In this document: positions 5,195 through 47,204 of the stretch, in pieces
How the letters are laid out: every line of letters starts with the position of its first letter
Numbering within the stretch: position 1 is the first letter of the stretch
Translations under genes and position numbers: made by a program
Source of the DNA: Prevotella sp.
GTDB taxonomy: Bacteria > Bacteroidota > Bacteroidia > Bacteroidales > Dysgonomonadaceae
Reading direction: 5' to 3'
Length of the DNA: 50,743 bases
Assembly: GCA_031273295.1 (NCBI GenBank)
Contig: JAISSD010000287.1
Coordinates: forward strand, 1 to 50,743
Notes under the pieces: generated by a model
Database searches by the model: none
Told to the model about the DNA's origin: nothing
The model's input: the letters and a program-made list of their open reading frames with translations, nothing else

Positions 5195-6315
5195 TGCCTT
5201 AAAAAAGCCTTTGTTAAGATGGGATATAAAAAACGGGTAACTACTCAGGTCAAAAAACAAGGGATGGATTCACACCTCTCAATCTTCCAAGCATATACCG
5301 TTATAAATTGTTTATTCCTCATGCCATAATATAGTGCTTGTCGAGACGTTTGTCTCAAAAACAATTGCATTCCATACTGAAAAGATAACGCATTTTTAAC
5401 AAAATAAATTTAAAAAAGATGTATAGATACTATTGGTTCAATATAACGGGGATGCACAGGCGGAATTTCAACCTCTTGGCGGACAGTACGGGAATGCCCG
5501 CCACATCATGCAATACCTGACCGCAATACCTGCAATAATCAGCGCCATGTTCTATTATCCCGTCCGGGCGAAAGCTCATTGACAGGGTTGGTGCCCGCAT
5601 TAACCTCCCGGCTTCTTCCCGATTTTTGAGGTAATGAGTCCCCTATCATTTTCATGCAGCACGCAGTGCGGTATTTCAATTGAGCGGAAAACAAGACAGT
5701 TAGAAGCTCTTACGGAAAAATTAAAAACGGCTTGAGAGGGATGTTACATAAGAGAGGTTGGAGGACTATATGATTCTTTGCTACTGAGTCCCCAAACGAT
5801 GAATCGCCACCCGCAAAAAGTAACTGGAAAACAAGGCCTTAGCGGATTGCCATAAATTTAGTTTTATCAATAAAATCAGGTGGATATGAGGTTTTTGCAC
5901 TCCAAAATTTTTAACGCAAAGAATCCACAAAATCTGCAAAAGAAATTCTTTGTGTCCTTTGTGATACACTTTGCGCCCTTTGTGTTAAACGGATTTTCTT
6001 GCAGTGCAACAATTTGAATTGCTTTGCTTTGCGCCCTTTGTGATATACCGTGCACGGCATGGTTTTGTGCATGGATAGTATATGGTAAAAAATCTCATTT
6101 TTACCTAATTCCAATAAACAAAACAACCCCGGACACAAGCATCCACCACCTTGAATACTTTCAGTCAATCCATTAGTCAGGCTTACTTTTGTTCTGCATT
6201 CATGTTAATGCAGAATAATCCGCAAAACTAAAAAAGAAACTGCATCCGGAAAGTCACAGTCACAGTCGCAGTCGCAATTACGCTAAAGCCAATAATGGTT
6301 GCGGTTGTCATCGTA
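5195..6315. repeat. Non-coding repeat mosaic A
   Basis: This is 1.1 kb without a credible gene, built from dispersed repeats. A solo 14-nt end GTAACTACTCAGGT (5237-5250) matches the terminal repeat of the MITE-like element at 41.4 and 45.7 kb. A 'ttgtttattcctcatgcc' motif lies at 5308-5325. The segments at 5630-5664, 5728-5788 and 5890-5990 recur in the same order at 10830-11080. CTTTGTG-rich runs cover 5945-6045, and a 'gcacggcatggttttgtgca' motif near 6053 recurs at 16140 and, inverted, near 11140. Open frames here (for example 5911-6168) merely read through these repeats. Confidence 0.8.
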
Positions 6316-13696: not shown

Positions 13697-13903
13697 CAGC
13701 TATTGATGACATGGAAACGGGATAATTGCCGAATGGCGTTGTCCTTTTTTTATACTTCTTTGTTTTATGGTCAGGAAACCGTTTAGGCATGAGAAATAAA
13801 CAACTATGACAGTATATGTCGAAATGATTGTATTTTGCAATGCTTGCATCCTGTAGAGATACATCCCTGCTGTTACAGGTTATTTATTTTTCATCGCTTA
13901 AAT

Positions 13904-15930: not shown

Positions 15931-16329
15931 ATTGCAAAGATAAGCATAAGCGGGATATTTTTTGCAGTTAAAAATGAAATTTTATTATTCAAATCTTATA
16001 ACTATCTGAATTTCATACGAATATGGTTTTGAATTTCACCCGGCATATGGAAGGCTTTCAGACTTGGTCTGACGGCTATGCCCTACGGGATAGAACACCG
16101 CAAAACTCAATCACCCCGGCATATCTTGTTATACACCGCGCACGGCATGGTTTTGTGCATGGAAAGTATATGGTAAAAAAACGCATGGTATGCCGCGTGA
16201 AGTATAAATTGTTTATTTCTCATGTCCAAGCGGGCTAAACGATAAAATTTCCGGCAAATAAAGATCCGTTTTTTAGAACCAAAGATCTTTATTGACTAAA
16301 ATTTAAACGGTTTATTGATCTAAAAACGC
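15931..16329. other. Intergenic region with mosaic repeats upstream of gmhA
   Basis: The stretch 16070-16230 is a mosaic of dispersed repeats: a 'ccctacgggatagaacaccg' segment akin to 16990-17060, the 'gcacggcatggttttgtgca' block near 16140, and 'ttgtttatttctcatgtcc' (16209-16227). An open frame at 16023-16238 reads through them and is not supported as a gene. Confidence 0.6.
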
Positions 16330-36872: not shown

Positions 36873-37910
36873 ATGATTATACGGTCCAAAGCTCCTTTGC
36901 GCCTCGGATTGGCGGGAGGAGGAAGTGATGTTTCGCCTTACAGTGAGGAATATGGCGGTTCCATATTAAATGCTACTATAAGTTTATACGCTTATTGTAC
37001 AATAGAAGAAACAGATGATCGTTTGATTTCCCTTAATGCGCCTGATATAGGCAAATCAATAGATTACCCTGTTTGTGAAACGCTGCCTATTGACGATAAT
37101 TTAGATTTACATAAAGCAGTGTATAACCGCATTGTAAAAGATTATAAAATATCGCCAAGGTCTTTTTCTATCACTACCTATTCCGATGCACCTCCGGGAA
37201 GCGGGTTAGGGTCTTCTTCTACTATGGTTGTTTCCATAATTAAAGCTTTCGCAGAATGGCTGAATTTGCCACTTGGAGAATACGAAATAGCCAGATTAGC
37301 CTACGAAATAGAAAGAATTGATTTGCAATTGAGCGGAGGCAAGCAAGATCAGTATGCTGCAACATTTGGCGGATTTAATTTTATGGAATTCAGAAAGGAT
37401 GATCAGGTTATTGTAAATCCGCTGAGAATCAAACAATGGATAATCGATGAGTTAGAGGCTTCAATCATACTCTATTACACAGGAGCTTCCAGAGAATCGG
37501 CAAAGATCATAGATGAACAAAAGAAAAACACTTTATACGGGAACATAGAGGCTATTGAAGCCATGCACCGAATAAAGCAAAGTTCTCTGGATATGAAAGA
37601 GGCAATACTGAAAGGAAACATCCTTGAATTTTCCAATATACTTGGAAAAGCCTGGAACGACAAGAAAAAAATGGCATCATCAATATCAAATAACCGTATT
37701 GACGAAATATTCAAAGCGGCAGTAGGTGCCGGAGCTTTAACCGGTAAAATATCCGGAGCTGGAGGCGGTGGATTCATTATATTTGTTGTGGATCCAAAAA
37801 AGCGGGTAGGAGTAATTAATGCGTTGAGTTTACTGAATGGGCGAGTTGTTGATTTTCAATTTAGTAAAGGAGGTTGCCATAGTTGGAAAATTTACAATAG
37901 TTTATCTTAA
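36873..37910 (+). CDS. hddA: D-glycero-D-manno-heptose 7-phosphate kinase
   Basis: This 345-residue GHMP kinase phosphorylates heptose 7-phosphate to the 1,7-bisphosphate. It starts [36 protein letters not shown], the HddA signature, and has the ATP-binding [17 protein letters not shown] (about 107-123), [27 protein letters not shown] (about 149-175) and the C-terminal [19 protein letters not shown] (about 287-305). It is the last gene of the continuous operon. The next steps (GmhB phosphatase and HddC guanylyltransferase) are not encoded in this window. Confidence 0.94.
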
Positions 37911-38526
37911 AACATCCCGCCACCTCCAAATCCGAAACCTATCTCTCCCTCCTACTCCAACCAGAGGCGCAGGTGCTCATAGGATGAATAAGCTAAAAAA
38001 ACGGCATGGCTGAACATGGCTACCAATTCGGGGTTTACAGGTTTTCGTGCAAATTTTTCCGTTTGGTTTTTAAATCCATCATTGGCCGGCCAATGAAGTG
38101 GGCGTTAAAAGCGTTTTTGGTTCCCCCTGTCCTTTCGGATTTAACCGCACTGCGTTCCGTTGACAGTTAACTGTAATCCGTTTATTTTTTTGTCGTTTCA
38201 CGCCATTTTCAATTTTTAATTCCACACAGTAAAAAAGAAGATAAAAAAACCTTTAAAGCGCCTGCTTTCCCCATGTATCAAACGATAAGGCGGACGGGAT
38301 AGCACAAAAAAGATATCCGCTTGTGCAGACTTTTTAGAGTCAAAATGTTTGATTCCCATCCAAAATTACGACAATTGAATATAAAAAGGCGGAAATATGC
38401 AACAATTCATTCAATTGGAATCAATATATCCGCGACAAATATAATAAAGCCGTATACGGCAAACAACAAAAATAAAGAGATGAGTAAATCCCTCTATTCT
38501 TGTTACATTCTTAATTCATTGGGAAG
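37911..38526. repeat. Repeat-rich gap after hddA
   Basis: The 50 bp after the hddA stop ('catcccgccacctccaaat' and on) recur after the acyltransferase gene at 41088-41140. A perfect 16-bp palindrome CATTGGCCGGCCAATG lies at 38080-38095 and ACAGTTAACTGT at 38163-38174. The segment 38213-38404 is the first of three copies of a longer repeat (others at 39629-39810 and 41582-41679). An open frame at 38321-38530 reads through that repeat and is not conserved between copies. Confidence 0.7.
38213..38404 (+). repeat. About 190-bp dispersed repeat, copy 1
   Basis: It is shared with 39629-39810 (nearly full length) and 41582-41679 (right half). Conserved landmarks are 'ccgcttgt', 'tttttagagtcaaaatgttt', 'gacaattgaatataaaaagg' and 'atatgcaaca'. 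Frames are broken between copies, so it is non-coding. Confidence 0.8.
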
Positions 38527-39628: not shown

Positions 39629-39810
39629 TTTTTAATTCCACGCAGTAAAAAAAGAACCTTCAAAGCGCCAGCTTTCTCCATATATCAAACGATAAAGGCG
39701 GACGGAATAGTACAAAAAATATCCGCTTGTGCAAGCTTTTTAGAGTCAAAATGTTTGATTCCTATTCCAAATTCCGACAATTGAATATAAAAAGGCGAAA
39801 ATATGCAACA
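39629..39810 (+). repeat. About 190-bp dispersed repeat, copy 2
   Basis: This is nearly full length compared with copy 1 at 38213-38404 and shares all of its landmarks. Small indels between the copies break any common reading frame. Confidence 0.8.
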
Positions 39811-40099
39811 GCCAACTCAATCGAAATCCATATCTTCGTAGGAAATAAAAATCTCATACGGGAAGAAAAATATCTACCGGTGCAGGCTTAAAGCCAAAGG
39901 ACAATGCGAACAGGAAAAGCAGAAAGACAAAGCTTATAGGGATTTGTTTTCTGCTGCTGTTTCCAAAGTTCGACAACCGATAACCTCATTCTTCAACCCG
40001 TTGAATGAACATACTGTTTATGCAACGGGTAAAATTGCCGTTGCGTTTATTCACCTGATTTTTTAAATGCTGATTCGCTTTAATAATAAAACAAGACAA

Positions 40100-41089
40100 A
40101 TGATAATTGAAAAACAACGTTGTTTATGGATTGATACAGCAAAAGGTATTGGAATAATATTAGTTGTATACGGACATGTTCTAAGAGGGCTTCACAGTTC
40201 GTCAATCCCGTTAAACAAAGGCTTCTTTGAAATTAGTGACGCTTTTGTATATAGTTTTCATATGCCATTGTTTTTTGTTCTTTCAGGATTATTCTTCAAA
40301 AAAAGTCTCGACAAATATACTCCTAAAGGATTATTTATTGAAAAAATCAAAACCATCTTTTATCCTTTTTTAATCTGGTCAATAGTCCAAACGGGAATAA
40401 AAATTGTGTTATCTCAATATACAAATGAGCAAATAGGCCTTGACAGTCTTATAACGTGTATTTTTATCCCCGAGTCTCAGTTTTGGTTTCTATACGCATT
40501 GTTTTTTATCAATATAATCAATATTTTTTTTCATGAGATTTTTAAAAAGAAATGGTTAATTATATCTTTAATAACAGGTTTTCTTTATTATGAATATCCA
40601 ATTAACTTATCTGTATTCTCAGATACGTTTAAATATCTAATATTTTTTAATCTGGGAATATTTCTTTCCGACACACTTTTTGAAGGTGGTTTATTGTCAA
40701 AATATTCAAAATTGCAGTATTTCATGCTAGCATTTTTACTCTTTACAGGTATCGAATATTTTTATATAATGCAATCTCTAAATGTTTTGGATAATTTTTT
40801 ATTGCCGGCAATATCAGGTATAACAATTATAATTCTAATGTCGTATATCATCAGTAAAAAGACATTTTTTGAAATTTTCAACCAGTTAGGAAAATATTCA
40901 ATGGAAATATATATATTGCATAGACTGGTTTTTTCCGGCACAAGAATAATTCTCTTTAGATTTTTAAGTATAGAAAATATATTTATTCATATCACATTGG
41001 GTACGTTACTAGGTGTAATAATTCCTTTTGTTATAACGTGGAAACTCCGAAATGTAACATCTTATAACAGATTATTCAGATTAAACTAA
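40100..41089 (+). CDS. Acyltransferase 3 family membrane protein (O-acetyltransferase)
   Basis: This 329-residue integral membrane protein of the AT3/OafA family acylates extracytoplasmic sugars. The opening RCLWIDTAKGIGIILVVYGHVLRGL has the active-site histidine. AFVYSFHMPLFFVLSGLFFKKS (about 41-62) has the second conserved histidine and the FxxSG motif. FYPFLIWSIVQTG and about ten membrane helices follow. I start at ATG 40100; an ATG at 40067 adds eleven residues not usual in the family. It probably decorates the polysaccharide from the nearby operon, though it is separated from it by 2 kb. Confidence 0.9.
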   Translation: MIIEKQRCLWIDTAKGIGIILVVYGHVLRGLHSSSIPLNKGFFEISDAFVYSFHMPLFFVLSGLFFKKSLDKYTPKGLFIEKIKTIFYPFLIWSIVQTGIKIVLSQYTNEQIGLDSLITCIFIPESQFWFLYALFFINIINIFFHEIFKKKWLIISLITGFLYYEYPINLSVFSDTFKYLIFFNLGIFLSDTLFEGGLLSKYSKLQYFMLAFLLFTGIEYFYIMQSLNVLDNFLLPAISGITIIILMSYIISKKTFFEIFNQLGKYSMEIYILHRLVFSGTRIILFRFLSIENIFIHITLGTLLGVIIPFVITWKLRNVTSYNRLFRLN

Positions 41090-41379
41090 AATATCCCGCC
41101 ACCTCCAAATCCGGAATACCTCCCTCCTACCCCAACTAAAAGCGTTAACGGGCAGGCAGGTACAAATCAAACCTATGTTTGAACAATCTTTTATTGCCCG
41201 ATTCATTTTTTTATCGTAGATTTGGCCAAAGGTAAATGAACCGTGAAAATTTAAACTTTGCGAACTCTGCGGTTACAAAAAAATGATTTAAACGCAGAGA
41301 AGGCGCAGAGTACGCAAAGAAAAAGAAGAGTATAACAATGGTATGACAACAATCTTTATAGAAGGATTGTTGATTAATT
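41090..41379. repeat. Repeats after the AT3 gene
   Basis: The first 50 bp repeat the DNA found just after hddA (37911-37960). At 41240-41330 a block of 'aaactttgcgaactctgcgg' and 'acgcagagaaggcgcagagt' repeats resembles that at 7110-7200. There is no gene. Confidence 0.7.
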
Positions 41380-41581
41380 TTAACTATTCAAGTAGCAAAA
41401 CGAATTGATTTACAAATATTTATCTCGATTCATATTTTTATATTTAATGCAGACGAGAATTATAAACTGCATATTATCAATGAATTATAAAATTAACGTT
41501 CAAATATGACTGATTTTTCTTGATATGATATCTAATTGATTATTTGGCATTTATGCTTATCCAAAGTACCCGGGTAGTTAC
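41380..41581 (+). mobile_element. MITE-like 202-bp element, copy 1
   Basis: This is nearly identical to 45745-45946 along its full length. Its ends form an imperfect terminal inverted repeat (TTAACTATTCAAGTA left; right end complementary to GTAACTACCCGGGTA). It codes for no protein. No target-site duplication flanks it (left 'attaattt', right 'caaaaaat'), so this copy has been involved in a rearrangement. Its right end abuts the half copy of the 190-bp repeat. Confidence 0.75.
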
Positions 41582-41679
41582 CAAAAAATATCCGCTTGTA
41601 CAGGCTTTTTAGAGTCAAAATGTTTGATTCCTATTCCAAATTCCGACAATTGAATATAAAAAGGCGGAAATATGCAACA
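41582..41679 (+). repeat. Right half of the 190-bp dispersed repeat, copy 3
   Basis: It matches the right halves of the copies at 38213 and 39629. The left half is missing and is replaced by the MITE-like element, which points to recombination at this junction. Confidence 0.8.
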
Positions 41680-41756
41680 TCTCATTCGGGCAGAATCAAT
41701 ATATTTGTTGTGCTTAGCGATCAATAGCGAAATTTGTGTTTTCAAAGGCTCTATCT

Positions 41757-41879
41757 ATGTTTACAGATTCATTTGTCCAACGAAAATATAAATCATTTGA
41801 AGTCGGTGACATGATAGATTTTCATATTGTTGAAACGATTATGCAGCTAAAATCAGGAAATAAAATATTATTATTATGA
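41757..41879 (+). pseudogene. Candidate C-terminal remnant of a Gfo/Idh/MocA oxidoreductase
   Basis: This 40-codon frame reads FEVGDMIDFHIVETIMQLKS, then GNKILLL. It resembles the last helix and strand of Gfo/Idh/MocA oxidoreductases (F.dG......i..i..S...g..i.l). Its TGA overlaps the ATG of the aminotransferase gene (ATGA), as between genes of a tight operon. Upstream the frame soon meets a stop and then repeat DNA. I infer that a larger gene heading this module lost its 5' part. The identification rests on a short match. Confidence 0.4.
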
Positions 41880-43159
41880 ATTATAGTCAACGGTTAAACC
41901 GGGTAATTCCCGGAGGTGCACATATTTATAGACAGGGAAATGATCAATATTCCGAAAATGCGCCACAAATTTTGGAGAGAGGAGAAGGCGCCTATATATA
42001 TACGCCTGAAGGAAAAAAATTCCTTGATTATGGAATGGCTCTTCACTCAGTAACGCTTGGATATGGAAATCCATCTGTTACTAATGCCGCTGTTAAGCAA
42101 ATAGGCTACGGAAATGACCTGACGCGGCCATCACTTATTGAATTGCAGGCAGCCGAATTGATGTGCAATTTAATACCCTCTGTCGAAATGGTCAAGTTTG
42201 CAAAAAACGAATCAGATGTAACCACGGCAGCGCTTAAAATTGCACGGGCTTACACCGGTCGGAAATATATTGCCCGATGCGCTCAACATCCTTTCTTTTC
42301 TTTCGATAATTGGTTTATCGGAAATACTCCTGTTACAAAAGGAATTCCCGAAGAAGATGTTCAATTTACACTTAATTTCAACTACAATGATATTCAATCT
42401 TTACAATCATTGTTTGATAAATATTCCGGACAAATTGCAGGAGTAATACTTGAACCGGCTACATCGGAGCATCCTCAAAACAATTTTTTACAGAAAGCCC
42501 AAGAGGCGTGCCATAAAAATGGAGCCATGTTTATTCTTGATGAAATGATTACCGGCTTTCGTTGGCATTTAAGTGGAGCGCAAGCATATTATGATATTAA
42601 ACCTGATTTATGCATCTTTGGAAAAAGTATGGCAAATGGTTTCCCTGTGACGGCAGTTGGTGGAAAAAGAGAAATCATGAATGTTGGTGGAATTAAGGAA
42701 CAAGGAGCAGAACGGGTATTTTTACTCTCCACCATGTATGGAGCGGAAATGTATGGGCTCGGGGCATTTGTCGAAACCATTCATTTTTACAAAGAACATC
42801 ATGTAATTGATCATCTTTGGAGTTATGGTGAAAAATTGACGAATGGAATGAATACAATCGCTAAAGAAATGGGATTGGAAAAATACTTTGAAATCTATGG
42901 CATTCCCTGTTCTCCAAATTACATGACAAAAGATAAAAATGATGAAGTTTCAATGGGATTACGTACACTATTCTTTCAAGAAATGATTAAGAACGGCGTA
43001 TTAATGCCATGTATTGCCATATCTTACGCACATGGTGAAATCGAATTGCAACGGACGCTTGAAGCCACAAGAAAGGCGCTTATGGCGTATGCCAAAGGAT
43101 TAGATGAAGGATATGAAAAATATCAGGGATGTAATAAAATCAGCATTTCGAAAATATAA
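41876..43159 (+). CDS. Class III PLP aminotransferase (glutamate-1-semialdehyde aminomutase-like)
   Basis: This 427-residue fold-type I aminotransferase resembles HemL: RVIPGGAHIYRQG at the start, GEGAYIYTPEGKKFLDYGMALHSVTLGYGNP (about 36-66), FAKNESDVTTAALKIARAYTGRKYIARC, GAMFILDEMITGFRWH with the PLP-binding aspartate (about 218-233), and the Schiff-base lysine in DLCIFGKSMANGFPVTAVGG. Its place ahead of a cytidylyltransferase, SDR and oxidoreductase suggests amination of a sugar precursor, not haem synthesis. Relatives are often found in polysaccharide and flagellin-glycan loci. The substrate is unknown. Confidence 0.9.
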   Translation: MNYSQRLNRVIPGGAHIYRQGNDQYSENAPQILERGEGAYIYTPEGKKFLDYGMALHSVTLGYGNPSVTNAAVKQIGYGNDLTRPSLIELQAAELMCNLIPSVEMVKFAKNESDVTTAALKIARAYTGRKYIARCAQHPFFSFDNWFIGNTPVTKGIPEEDVQFTLNFNYNDIQSLQSLFDKYSGQIAGVILEPATSEHPQNNFLQKAQEACHKNGAMFILDEMITGFRWHLSGAQAYYDIKPDLCIFGKSMANGFPVTAVGGKREIMNVGGIKEQGAERVFLLSTMYGAEMYGLGAFVETIHFYKEHHVIDHLWSYGEKLTNGMNTIAKEMGLEKYFEIYGIPCSPNYMTKDKNDEVSMGLRTLFFQEMIKNGVLMPCIAISYAHGEIELQRTLEATRKALMAYAKGLDEGYEKYQGCNKISISKI

Positions 43160-43192
43160 TTAAATGAATAAAGATAAAATAACTAACATTTT

Positions 43193-43223
43193 GTCACTAT
43201 TTCTTCTCGTGGAGAATAGTGAC
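43193..43223. other. Hairpin between the aminotransferase and cytidylyltransferase genes
   Basis: Outer arms GTCACTA and TAGTGAC and inner arms TTCTC and GAGAA around a GTG loop form a stable stem. No T-run follows on either strand, so it may be a transcript-processing or attenuation site, not a classical terminator. Confidence 0.5.
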
Positions 43224-43344
43224 TAGGAAACTGTTATGAATTAAATTTACTGTCATAATTTTTTAATACATTATAAAACAAGTATTTGCAATGTACTAAT
43301 CGTTATGTTATTCAGTAACAATTCCTAGATTAAAACATTATTAG

Positions 43345-44049
43345 ATGGAAAATCACAATATATTAGCAATTATTCCGGCGAGGGGAGGTAGTAAAGGATT
43401 ACCAAATAAAAATATTAAACCTCTATTAGGAAAACCGCTCATTGCTTATGCTATTGAAGCCTTAAATTCTTCAAAATATCCAATGGACATTGTTATTTCA
43501 ACAGATTCAAAAGTAATATCTGAAGTTGGAAATAAGTTTGGCGTTACATCTGTTATGCGACCTCCCGAGTTGGCCACAGATACGTCTTTAGTTATTGACA
43601 CTGTCAAATATACAATTAATTATTTAAAGAAAACAGGAAAAACATATAATGTATTGTTACTTATAGAACCCACTAACCCATTAAGGAATAACGAGGATAT
43701 TGATGATGCTTTGGATTTTTTCTTTAATACAAGTTCTTTTGATGCTGTTGCCACATTTTCCAAATTAAAACAACCAATTACTAGATTGTGGAATATAAAG
43801 AATAATATTCCAACAACTCTTTTTTCAGATGCAGACCCTTTCAATAGAAGACAAGATCAGAAATATGGATATTATATAAATGGATTAGTATATGCATTTA
43901 AAATATCAAATTTAGAAGATAATGATTATCAATCCTTTTTTAATGCTAAGTTTGGCGCTGTGATTACAAATAAAAAAGTAATAGATATAGATGATGAATA
44001 TGATTTTTTTATTGCAGAACAATTATTAAAACATAAAAATAAATTTTAG
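43345..44049 (+). CDS. CMP-sugar (acylneuraminate-type) cytidylyltransferase
   Basis: This 234-residue enzyme has the CMP-NeuAc synthetase pattern: NILAIIPARGGSKGLPNKNIKPLLGKPLIAYAIEALNSS (about 4-42), DIVISTDSKVISEV, RPPELATDTSLVIDTVKY (about 72-89), LLLIEPTNPLRNNEDIDDAL (about 104-123) and YYINGLVYAFK. It would activate a nonulosonic-type acid or related keto sugar with CTP. The closest named relatives by motif are PtmB/NeuA-like proteins. No NeuB-type synthase is in the window. It ends 1 nt before the SDR gene. Confidence 0.9.
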   Translation: MENHNILAIIPARGGSKGLPNKNIKPLLGKPLIAYAIEALNSSKYPMDIVISTDSKVISEVGNKFGVTSVMRPPELATDTSLVIDTVKYTINYLKKTGKTYNVLLLIEPTNPLRNNEDIDDALDFFFNTSSFDAVATFSKLKQPITRLWNIKNNIPTTLFSDADPFNRRQDQKYGYYINGLVYAFKISNLEDNDYQSFFNAKFGAVITNKKVIDIDDEYDFFIAEQLLKHKNKF

Positions 44050-44050
44050 C

Positions 44051-44845
44051 ATGAGGACATTACAAAATCTATTTTCCTTAAAAGAAAAAGTAGCATTAGT
44101 TCCCGGTGGTGCAGGCTATTTAGGAGAAGCAATATGCGAAACATTAGCAGAATTAGGAGCTAATTTATATATAGCTTCAAGATCGAAACATAAATGTGTA
44201 AATTACGCAAAAGCGCTTGCCGACAAATATCCAATTAAAACAATAGGAAATGCATTGGATATAACAAATATTGATTCTATAAAAGAAAATATTGACTCTT
44301 GTATTAGTGAATTTGGACAGATAGATATACTTGTGAATGATGCGTGGTCGGGGAATAAAAATACTTTTGAAAGTATAAGTTATGACGATTGGAATTATGA
44401 TATTAATGTCTGTCTAAATGGTGTTTTTTATACGATAAAAGAAGTTGTTCCTTATTTATATAAAACACATGGAGTAATTTTAAATATAGCATCCATGTAT
44501 GGTCACATAGCTCCGGATTATAAAATTTACGACGGTAAAAAATATGCAAACCCACCTAGTTATGGCGCCGCAAAAGCAGGTATAATTCAATTAACAAAAT
44601 ATCTTTCAAGTTTTTTGTCGGAAAAAAATATTAGAGTAAATTCAATTAGTCCGGGACCTTTTCCTTTTGAATCCACACAAGAAGAAAACAAAGAATTTAT
44701 AAAAATACTAGCAAATAAAAATATTATTGGACGAATAGGTGAACCTGATGATTTAAAAGGCGCTGTGGCTCTTTTATGTTCAGATGCATCAAAATATATG
44801 ACAGGACAAAATATTTGTGTTGATGGAGGATGGGCTGTATGGTGA
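44051..44845 (+). CDS. Short-chain dehydrogenase/reductase (PtmA-like)
   Basis: This 264-residue classical SDR has the NAD loop ALVPGGAGYLGEAI (about 15-28), DILVNDAWSG (about 96-105), a serine-containing NIASMYGHIAP strand, the catalytic YGAAK (about 174-178) and a closing MTGQNICVDGGWAVW. The wording LVPGGAGYLG and the linkage to a CMP-sugar cytidylyltransferase match PtmA-type proteins of flagellin and surface glycan loci. Its exact oxidation step is not known. It overlaps the next gene by 7 nt. Confidence 0.88.
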   Translation: MRTLQNLFSLKEKVALVPGGAGYLGEAICETLAELGANLYIASRSKHKCVNYAKALADKYPIKTIGNALDITNIDSIKENIDSCISEFGQIDILVNDAWSGNKNTFESISYDDWNYDINVCLNGVFYTIKEVVPYLYKTHGVILNIASMYGHIAPDYKIYDGKKYANPPSYGAAKAGIIQLTKYLSSFLSEKNIRVNSISPGPFPFESTQEENKEFIKILANKNIIGRIGEPDDLKGAVALLCSDASKYMTGQNICVDGGWAVW

Positions 44846-45723
44846 AAATTGGAATGATTGGGTATAATGAAGGAAATGGTCACCCTTATTCATTTTCGGC
44901 GATCATAAATGGATATAATCCTTCTGCTATGGAGACATCTCCATATCCCATTATTAATAAATATTTATCAGAAAGAAACAAGGATGAATTTGGGATCAAT
45001 GATTTTAAAGTCACGCATATTTGGACTCCGAATATTTTTATTGCAAAAAATATAGCCGAATGCACATATATTCCAAATATTGTTTCTGACTATCGTGATT
45101 TTGTAGGGCAAGTAGATGCTGTTATCATTGCGAGAGATGATGTTGATTCTCACTTTGAGTTAATCAATTTCTTCTTAAAAGAAAAATTACTGGTTTTTGT
45201 AGATAAACCATTGTGTTCAAGTCTAAAACATTTAGACTTTTTCATGCCGTATATTGAATCTGCTCAATTAATGTCATGTTCAGGACTAAGATATCAACCG
45301 GATATAATAACTTTTTTTGATGGAAAATTAAAAAGAGAAGATATCTGTTTTGTTAATACATTGAGTTTATTAGATTGGAAAAAATATGGCATTCATCTTC
45401 TTGAGGCCATAACTCCAATTATGGGCATTGATATAAAAAAAGTATCTAATTTAAATGATAAAAACAATTATATTGTAAAGATCGAATATTATTCAGGTCA
45501 ATACGCTTTAATCCAAATAAATAATAATTGTATTAATCCGATGCAGGCAGAATTTTTCACAATAAACGAATCATTAAAAACCATATTTAATCAAAATTTT
45601 GTATGCTTTAAAACCTTGCTTATTGAATTTTCCAAAATGATAAAAAATAAAAAAGCAGCCATAAATCCAATGGAAACATATATGATAGTAAAAACAATTA
45701 TAGAAGGAGAAAAATATGCTTAG
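44839..45723 (+). CDS. Gfo/Idh/MocA-family oxidoreductase
   Basis: This 294-residue protein has an N-terminal Rossmann motif (KIGMIGYNEGNGHP, about 2-15), VDAVIIARDDVDSHFEL (about 92-108), the family lysine-proline motif in LVFVDKPLCSSL (about 116-127), and a C-terminal helix (NPMETYMIVKTIIEGEKYA). I chose ATG 44839 (MVKIGMIG), in a TG-rich overlap with the SDR stop; an ATG at 44830 is possible. It ends the CMP-sugar module. The central domain is short, so the substrate cannot be inferred. Confidence 0.85.
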   Translation: MVKIGMIGYNEGNGHPYSFSAIINGYNPSAMETSPYPIINKYLSERNKDEFGINDFKVTHIWTPNIFIAKNIAECTYIPNIVSDYRDFVGQVDAVIIARDDVDSHFELINFFLKEKLLVFVDKPLCSSLKHLDFFMPYIESAQLMSCSGLRYQPDIITFFDGKLKREDICFVNTLSLLDWKKYGIHLLEAITPIMGIDIKKVSNLNDKNNYIVKIEYYSGQYALIQINNNCINPMQAEFFTINESLKTIFNQNFVCFKTLLIEFSKMIKNKKAAINPMETYMIVKTIIEGEKYA

Positions 45724-45744
45724 GCATGTGAAATAAACAATTTA

Positions 45745-45946
45745 GTAACTATTCAAGTAGCAAAACGAATTGATTTACAAATATTTATCTCGATTCATAT
45801 TTTGATGTTCAATGTAGACGAGAATTATAAACTGCATATTATCAACGAATTATAAAATCAACGCTCAAATATGACTGATTTTTCTTGATATGATATATAA
45901 TTGATTATTTGGCATTTATGCTTATCCAAAGTACCTGAGTAGTTAC
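45745..45946 (+). mobile_element. MITE-like 202-bp element, copy 2, with target duplication
   Basis: The terminal inverted repeats read GTAACTATTCAAGTA on the left and (complement of the right end) GTAACTACTCAGGTA. The element is non-coding. A 9-nt direct duplication aaacaattt flanks it at 45735-45743 and 45947-45955, the mark of a transposition event. IS66-family ends often begin GTAA with an 8-bp duplication, so an IS66-like transposase is a plausible helper; none is in the window. Confidence 0.8.
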
Positions 45947-45951
45947 AAACA

Positions 45952-46389
45952 ATTTTATTTACAATAGGTTACGAAGGTATCTCGCTGGAAGAATATTTGA
46001 ATCGCCTGATCAGGAACGATGTCAAGGTTTTGGTTGACGTCCGGAATAATCCGGCAAGCATGAAATACGGATTCGGCAAAAGTCTGCTTAAACGCTTTTG
46101 CGAAAATTCGGGAATCCAGTACGTACATTTTCCCGAAGTCGGCATACAATCGGAACAACGCCAGGAACTGAATACGCAAGCAGACTACAACCGCTTGTTT
46201 GCCGATTACAAAATAACTTGTCTGACAAAGACACAAGCGGCACAAAACGCCATTTTGAACTTGCTCAAAAAACATCAACGTATTGCCTTAACCTGTTTTG
46301 AAGCAAATATTTGCCAATGCCACCGCAAACATTTGGCGGAAGCAATAACCCAACTACCCGGATTTGTTTATGAACTCAAACATATCTGA
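45952..46389 (+). pseudogene. DUF488-family protein, start codon missing
   Basis: The frame has the complete DUF488 core: FTIGYEGISLEEYLNRLIRNDV, LVDVRNNPASMKYGFGK, and the signature ALTCFEANICQCHRKHLAEAI. No ATG, GTG or TTG precedes the core in frame: after the last upstream stop the codons run to ATT TTA TTT ACA ATA GGT, and the first ATG (45997) would remove the conserved N-terminal strand. The MITE-like element ends six bases before 45952, but even the pre-insertion sequence has a TAA and no ATG there. It may start at the ATT (45952), or be broken. Confidence 0.7.
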
Positions 46390-46391
46390 CC

Positions 46392-47204
46392 ATGTCGCCA
46401 ACCAAAGTCCTGATAACAGTAAAAACCTATCCCGCAATTTCTTCCAAATACGAAGAATTGGTTTGTACAGCCGGTTTTCGCGAAGACGGCAAGCGGGTTA
46501 GAATTTATCCCGTCCAATTCCGCAAAAAATCATATAACGAACAATACAGGAAATACGACTGGATAGAATTGGATTTGGTTAAAAACGACAGCGATTTCCG
46601 CCCCGAAAGTTATCGGCCTTATTCGTTTGACAGCGACATAAATATAGTTGGGCATATTGGTACGGATAAGAATTGGACAGAACGGAAAAAGATTGTCTTG
46701 CAAAAGGTTTACACCAACTTGCATGAACTGATTGCAGAGGCTCATAACAAAGATGTTTGTACTTCCTTGGCAGTTTTCAAGCCCAAAAAGATTTTAGATT
46801 TCAGGGTTGAATCCGTTGAACGTGAATGGGATAAAAAGAAATTGGAAAGACTTCGCCAAATGAACTTGTTTGAAACAGTAACAACTTCAGGCAAGTTTGA
46901 AGTTGTGCGTAAACTTCCTTATAAATTTTCGTATCAATTTAAAGATGAGGCAGGTACGGAAAGCTGCCTGATGATTGAAGATTGGGAAATTGGACAACTA
47001 TATTGGAATTGCCTCGCCAAATACGAGGGTGACGAGTCAAAAGCCGCCGATGTTCGCAAGAAATATTTTGATGACTTTGCCCAAACAAAAGATTTATACC
47101 TGTTTCTCGGCGCCTCTCAGGTGCATCATTTTCCCTCCAAAAATCCGTTTATGATTATCGGAACCTTTCAGCCGAAAAAGGAGTTAACGGGGAGTTTGTT
47201 CTAA
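46392..47204 (+). CDS. Conserved hypothetical protein paired with DUF488
   Basis: This 270-residue protein starts 2 nt after the DUF488 stop and is probably co-translated with it. The N-terminal half opens KVLITVKTYPAISSKYEELVCTAGFREDGKRVRIYPVQFRKK, a beta-rich motif with basic residues, then YDWIELDL. The C-terminal half contains YKFSYQFKDEAGTESCLMIEDWEIGQLYWNC and a closing FLGASQVHHFPSKNPFMIIGTFQ. There is no signal peptide or membrane segment. I do not recognise a characterised family; the tight link to DUF488 suggests a shared nucleic-acid or stress-related role. Confidence 0.75.
   Translation: MSPTKVLITVKTYPAISSKYEELVCTAGFREDGKRVRIYPVQFRKKSYNEQYRKYDWIELDLVKNDSDFRPESYRPYSFDSDINIVGHIGTDKNWTERKKIVLQKVYTNLHELIAEAHNKDVCTSLAVFKPKKILDFRVESVEREWDKKKLERLRQMNLFETVTTSGKFEVVRKLPYKFSYQFKDEAGTESCLMIEDWEIGQLYWNCLAKYEGDESKAADVRKKYFDDFAQTKDLYLFLGASQVHHFPSKNPFMIIGTFQPKKELTGSLF

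Follow-up and report, generated by a model that had tools for sequence, protein, structure and literature searches.

Genomic context of the module

The window analyzed here is the whole of contig C136 (JAISSD010000287.1, 50,743 nt) of the Prevotella sp. assembly GCA_031273295.1, a genome of 4.17 Mb in 312 contigs, in which two 202-bp copies of a miniature inverted-repeat transposable element (MITE) bracket a module of four open reading frames (ORFs, 41876-45723; Table 1). As stated in the original prediction, made from the letters of this DNA, the two copies are direct repeats devoid of coding capacity. Indeed, they lie in the same orientation with 94.6% identity (11 differences, and a longest common exact run of 58 nt), and the longest stop-free frame of the right copy spans 36 codons. 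Our results moderately favor an origin in which the two MITEs were inserted independently at the border of a polysaccharide cluster of low guanine-cytosine (GC) content, their outer flanks being replaced later through recombination or deletion.

The first gene of the module matches NF004856 with 618 bits (cut-off 486). Among the best 80 of 458 loci with a homologue of this aminotransferase, 23 have homologues of the cytidylyltransferase and the dehydrogenase beside it, so that genes 1-3 represent a recurrent set, which is consistent with a putative role in the metabolism of cytidine monophosphate (CMP)-linked sugars; no homologue of the module oxidoreductase was detected at any of the 80 loci at an E-value of 1e-8. 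The GC content is 0.321 in the module, 0.327 in the preceding cluster (25-41 kb) and 0.474 from 46 kb onward, and the right MITE sits at the edge of this low-GC stretch. In its own genome, the module block has no second location among the candidates scored (4 of 112), the other matches being only about 100 nt long, and a full match is likewise missing from 60 relatives, which are other species and include no second strain of the source species. Relatives that carry the module free of such elements, which would speak against the original prediction, were encountered in a loose sense only: the five loci scanned lack such ends, but with 26-73% identity to those of the module the homologous genes do not represent the same DNA.

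Table 1. Position of the MITE copies, module genes and neighboring features in the window
Feature	Position	Strand	Remarks
Left-end remnant of IS66 element	5237..5273	+	37-nt match to the left end of the insertion sequence, 91.9%
Terminator-like hairpin	41347..41372	+	directly left of the left MITE, in its outer flank
Left MITE copy	41380..41581	+	202 bp; intact right end, left end TTAAC without its terminal G; 8-bp target duplication absent
D1 repeat	41583..41719	+	starts mid-sequence at the left MITE; related to a family of small ORFs in 333-bp tandem units
Module gene 1, class III aminotransferase	41876..43159	+	PRK06209 type, named glutamate-1-semialdehyde 2,1-aminomutase
Dispersed repeat of another family, ~100 bp	43227..43326	+	between module genes 1 and 2
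Module gene 2, cytidylyltransferase	43345..44049	+	CTP_transf_3; PseF is the best-scoring NCBIfam model (133.8 bits, cut-off of 205.7 not reached)
Module gene 3, short-chain dehydrogenase	44051..44845	+	
Module gene 4, Gfo/Idh/MocA-type oxidoreductase	44830..45723	+	stop codon inside the dispersed repeat
Dispersed-repeat piece, core GGCATGAGAAATAAACAATTTA	45720..45744	+	meets the right MITE
Right MITE copy	45745..45946	+	202 bp, with intact ends on both sides; 8-bp target duplication in register absent
DUF488 gene without its ~150-aa N-terminal domain	45947..46389	+	frame begins at the right MITE
ORF after DUF488	46392..47204	+	in 4 of 5 relatives checked, DUF488 is followed by a homologue (fragmented in one)

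The MITE family and its putative parent

The inverted ends GTAACTAYYCRRGTA were matched seven times in the window at up to two mismatches, where 0.62 matches are expected, and four of these seven are the ends of the left and right copies. Left ends read GTAACTATTCAAGTA, and right ends, read inwards, GTAACTACCCGGGTA or GTAACTACTCAGGTA. The predicted ends were thus recovered for both copies, apart from the terminal G of the left copy, the first base of which is T. Over the whole genome, at least 37 matches to the left copy were obtained (a lower bound, since 40 of 61 candidates were scored), ranging from full-length elements down to short fragments, including some that belong to one and the same broken copy, and the 16-nt end pattern was matched 66 times at up to one mismatch compared with once for a reversed-pattern control. 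The search for further copies proposed with the original prediction therefore had a positive outcome. Being short, non-coding and multicopy, having terminal inverted repeats in common with an autonomous insertion sequence (IS) of the same genome, and showing 8-bp duplications within the family, these elements fit the designation 'MITE-like' given to them at the outset. In a tree and an alignment of 17 full-length copies, which diverge by ~14% on average, the left and right window copies are mutually closest (SH-like support 0.91), and the next-closest pairing (92.6%) involves the right copy.

The family was not found in other genomes, namely 60 relatives (up to 13 candidates scored per genome) and 392 other genomes of the order (two candidates per genome), this absence resting on the best candidates, with matches of at most 44 nt. 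Seven loci with such short matches were inspected as possible MITE copies; six were rejected as internal pieces with no end adjoining, and the seventh (in genome G079; 44 nt, 82%) covers MITE positions 1-43 with a terminus too unlike the end consensus to count.

An IS66-like parent had also been suspected, and a suitable element was identified on another contig (C101:5876-7311). It measures 1,436 bp, with two facing ends around a single ORF, on the strand read, encoding a 447-aa transposase (NF033517, 240 bits for a cut-off of 180; PF03050 and zf-IS66 domains matched), and is bordered on both sides by AATAAAAG, an exact 8-bp target site duplication (TSD). A single transposase ORF between the ends, together with a duplication of 8 bp, places it with the ISBst12 group. 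Both of its 15-bp ends are identical to the right end of the right copy. This element is therefore a plausible parent of the MITE family, and, judging from the ends and the duplication length, the MITEs are probably mobilized, now or formerly, by its transposase. The 'solo end' reported at 5237, taken earlier for a MITE end, has to be reassigned, since its match to the MITE covers only the 14 terminal nt ungapped, as against the longer match to the left end of the IS66 element (Table 1).

Note that hairpins (2 versus 2.7) and promoter-like sites (26 versus 30.0) did not exceed the shuffled sequences in our scans, and that RNA folding displayed nothing unusual in one 150-nt stretch of each MITE copy. 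The other repeat family, found between module genes 1 and 2, has imperfect inverted ends and copies in contigs C199, C254, C96, C258 and C112, and partial copies of it lie near IS66-type ends in C49 and C139.

Target duplications

Within the MITE family, duplications are 8 bp long and stand directly against GTAAC/GTTAC. They were observed (at up to one mismatch) in 6 of the 17 full-length MITEs, three exact and three with one mismatch, and when all end pairs are considered, 7 of 25 have 8-mers that are equal at this threshold (the six MITEs and the IS), for a shuffled mean of 0.49 and a maximum of 3; two of the 25 pairs are neighboring ends and not one element. It should be noticed that 76 ends were compared, that chance-like matches of a loose pattern were dropped beforehand and several '?' ends relabeled by eye, and that nine sites of the 16-nt end pattern (on C9, C53, C106, C127, C139, C179, C184:168, C208:9685 and C209) lie outside this set. 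A duplication of parental length is thus a property of the family and of neither window copy, their flanking 8-mers having 4/8 and 5/8 mismatches.

That the left copy has no duplication and adjoins another repeat was correctly predicted, the repeat being D1. The 9-nt target duplication AAACAATTT attributed to the right copy did not withstand inspection of its borders, which read AAACAATTTA/GTAAC on the left and GTTAC/AAACAATTT on the right. The apparent repeat is consequently out of register, with an extra A at the left end, and the adjacent 8-mers have 5 mismatches in 8 positions (ACAATTTA versus AAACAATT). In addition, its left half belongs to the dispersed repeat and its right half to the DUF488 coding sequence. 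The AAACAATTT match is a coincidence or microhomology, the two being inseparable here.

Neither the outer flanks (GATTAATT on the left, AAACAATT on the right) nor the inner flanks (CAAAAAAT on the left, ACAATTTA on the right) resemble each other. None of these four flanks has an exact partner among the 76 ends, nor among 148 distinct, loosely defined ends, a set that includes chance matches of the pattern and provided three A-rich matches with one mismatch. Genome-wide, the ends of different copies gave more cross matches than shuffled ones, with 7 exact cases (0.6 on average after shuffling, at most 4) and 14 one-mismatch cases (5.2 on average, at most 12). Of the exact matches, we take C257/C111 and C124/C163 to come from copies whose halves fell on different contigs. 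Two more (C204/C208 and C89/C226) would be split, recombined or misjoined copies, and the remaining three we put down to coincidence between low-complexity ends.

Truncated DNA beside the MITE copies

On the left side, the D1 copies at 38211 and 39627 possess an extra 87-97 nt upstream (81% alike over 96 columns), of which no more than 10 matching bases were found in 41090-41379. On the right side, homologues of the DUF488 gene in five relatives (G026, with 71% identity, G043, G035, G030 and G055) are open frames of 295-372 aa, in which a ~150-aa domain precedes DUF488. A search with this N-terminal domain of G026 matched 5 of 8 genomes, namely all those in which a close DUF488 homologue is present; with positive controls, it did not find the domain in the own genome, G018 or G031. 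A translocated N-terminal half elsewhere in the own genome was likewise sought and discarded, nothing being found on repeating the search with positive controls. Since a homologue of the downstream ORF is kept in four of the five relatives, the right side looks native. When the four flanks were compared with one another, a single 11-nt match was obtained.

The dispersed repeat that meets the right MITE has 25 genome matches to its core GGCATGAGAAATAAACAATTTA at up to one mismatch. Its window copies are located at 45720-45744, 5304-5325, 13786-13807 (3 mismatches) and 16205-16226, and among 24 other copies it continues with TAACAG in 14 and with near variants in 5.

With regard to D1, fragments of the family occur in the window at 38308-38444, 39714-39850 and 41583-41719 and have at least 56 matches in the genome (a lower bound, 40 of 146 candidates being scored), and in C140:4000-6514 its 333-bp units are arrayed in tandem and carry overlapping ORFs of ~90-100 aa. 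Another repeat of 50 nt (78% identical, at 37899-37948 and 41078-41127) overlaps the ends of a GHMP kinase gene and an acyltransferase gene, two unrelated genes that both belong to the polysaccharide cluster.

Origin of the arrangement

Both window copies lack duplications and abut truncated DNA, and recombination or deletion after separate insertions best explains this combination. According to the proposed mechanism, MITEs carrying the terminal repeats of the resident ISBst12-type IS66 element would have been inserted separately on either side of the last genes of the cluster, the left one into a D1 repeat and the right one into the dispersed repeat or the DUF488 gene. The outer flanks would then have been replaced, with loss of the upstream part of D1 and of the N-terminal half of DUF488; indeed these two parts, like the target duplications, are all gone at the window copies. 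The likeliest cause would be either homologous recombination involving two MITE copies or a deletion with one endpoint at the end of an element, and the direct orientation of the pair might permit loss of the intervening 4.4 kb by RecA-type deletion. The MITE pair is most likely no transposing unit, and the whole resembles what a genome rich in repeats would ordinarily produce. Moreover, the probability that 17 to 37 copies placed at random on a 4.17-Mb circle yield at least one direct neighbor pair within 4,365 bp ranges from 0.13 to 0.50, and the bracketing alone is therefore weak evidence.

Several observations weigh against this explanation. The lost flanks were not recovered beside any other copy among the ends compared, so that we infer the recombination step. 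Independent insertions do not predict that the window copies are mutually closest, and this sister relation is the single feature in favor of a common local history, which may be local transposition or gene conversion between neighbors. Five of the 24 other copies of the dispersed repeat diverge at the same point without any MITE; this repeat may thus be uncut, in which case only DUF488 shows a loss on the right. Finally, the left ends of the right and left copies differ from the IS end at 2 and 3 of 15 bases, respectively, and the interior of the MITE has no clear similarity to that of the IS. The IS on C101 consequently need not be the direct ancestor, and mobilization by its transposase is argued from the ends and the duplication length.

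The original prediction held that the pair could have placed the module here, which in its strict form means that the two MITEs carried the module along in a single move, like a composite transposon. In favor of such a unit, the copies are direct, mutually closest among 17 and bracket a gene block, and the adjoining DNA is truncated, as in the Acinetobacter integron cases (PMC3934969; statements on this and the other papers cited refer to excerpts of the source). However, the outer flanks GATTAATT and AAACAATT form no matching duplication, the inner flanks differ as well, no exact partners were found among the ends compared, the divergence of 5.4% between the copies contrasts with the Acinetobacter MITEs, described as identical and with 5-bp repeats (PMC3934969), and the block has no second genomic location among the candidates scored. 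We consequently consider this form very unlikely, although a weaker form of the placement idea fits, the truncated D1 and DUF488 being compatible with recombination or deletion at the MITEs. A better but still unlikely candidate is an exchange in which homologous recombination replaced a resident stretch between two MITEs with the module. This would be in line with four flanks that are unrelated apart from one 11-nt match, with a D1 cut at the left MITE and with a DUF488 deprived of its N-terminal half at the right MITE. On the other hand, a module with the GC content of the adjacent cluster (0.321 versus 0.327) does not need to be a recent arrival, our searches brought up neither a donor nor a displaced segment, and the exchange does not predict that the copies are sisters. 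Extending the same idea, the IS66-type MITEs might act as recombination borders of the polysaccharide locus, homologous recombination swapping the segments between them, with the CMP-sugar module as one exchangeable cassette and the DUF488 and D1 losses as scars of the most recent exchange, a speculative scenario that we hold for rather doubtful.

Two further explanations were considered. The contig could have been misjoined inside the 202-bp repeats, as several of the 312 contigs end inside a MITE, truncated ends on different contigs have an exact TSD in common (C257/C111 and C124/C163), a full copy in C89 has its TSD in common with a contig end in C226, and two of the nine copies at contig ends are broken despite longest shared runs of just 55 and 66 nt. 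At the window copies, the exact runs shared with the other 28 loci compared reach 46 nt (left copy) and 59 nt (right copy), and those shared between the two reach 58 nt, versus 95-119 identical bases shared with another copy in 7 of the 9 contig-end copies. We regard such a chimera as improbable, and the window junctions, on the basis of these runs, are more likely real than not. Some spanned MITE copies elsewhere may nevertheless be misjoined; in this respect, the exact 8-bp duplications common to ends on C89/C226, C257/C111, C124/C163 and C204/C208 suggest joins or misjoins through MITEs. As for plain old insertions with duplications decayed by mutation and no rearrangement, three of the six MITE duplications already display one mismatch, and 11 of the 17 full-length copies have no duplication at up to one mismatch. 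Yet 4-5 mismatches in 8 positions would require a divergence of ~50%, to be compared with the ~14% average between copies, and the truncated D1 and DUF488 show that the two sides are not contiguous, which makes this explanation hardly credible.

Comparison with known systems

Our analysis adds an IS66 (ISBst12-type) MITE family for which an intact element of the same genome is a plausible parent. The case also emphasizes that a bracketing MITE pair alone is no mark of a mobile module, and that the register of the duplications, the continuity of the flanks and the chance spacing of copies need checking. If true, MITE-bordered exchange at a polysaccharide locus would represent a transposase-free route to surface variation. 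No description of an IS66-derived MITE was found in the excerpts of the literature considered (PMC9769881, PMC3189936 and PMC3281130 included), which does not deny that one exists, and those of PMC10969869, PMC8024623 and PMC12888890 held nothing decisive on these elements.

Regarding the parent, two IS66 elements with 8-bp repeats are listed in PMC3281130, and the closest parallel is provided by ISDge4 of Deinococcus geothermalis, an ISBst12-group IS66 element shown to transpose (PMC12898284). Like the C101 element, ISDge4 has a single transposase ORF (449 aa versus 447 aa here) and an 8-bp direct repeat, and its ends GTAACTGCTCAGCA / GTGACTACTCAGCA closely resemble GTAACTACTCAGGTA of the present genome (PMC12898284). 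Unlike ISDge4, the window elements contain no transposase and have only the ends in common with it, the full element being located on another contig. With regard to the bracketing, 439-bp MITE pairs of Acinetobacter were proposed to move class 1 integrons as a block; there, too, a same-orientation pair brackets genes with truncated DNA beside it, but those MITEs are identical and the block, with 5-bp outer repeats, is reported at several sites, in contrast to the 94.6% identity and the missing outer repeat observed here (PMC3934969). Finally, MITECca01 of Cardinium (PMC9769881) offers a comparable situation, as this lineage-specific MITE (~240 bp) coexists with its parental IS, which is intact, in a genome rich in repeats, the parent being an IS982 in Cardinium and an IS66 here.

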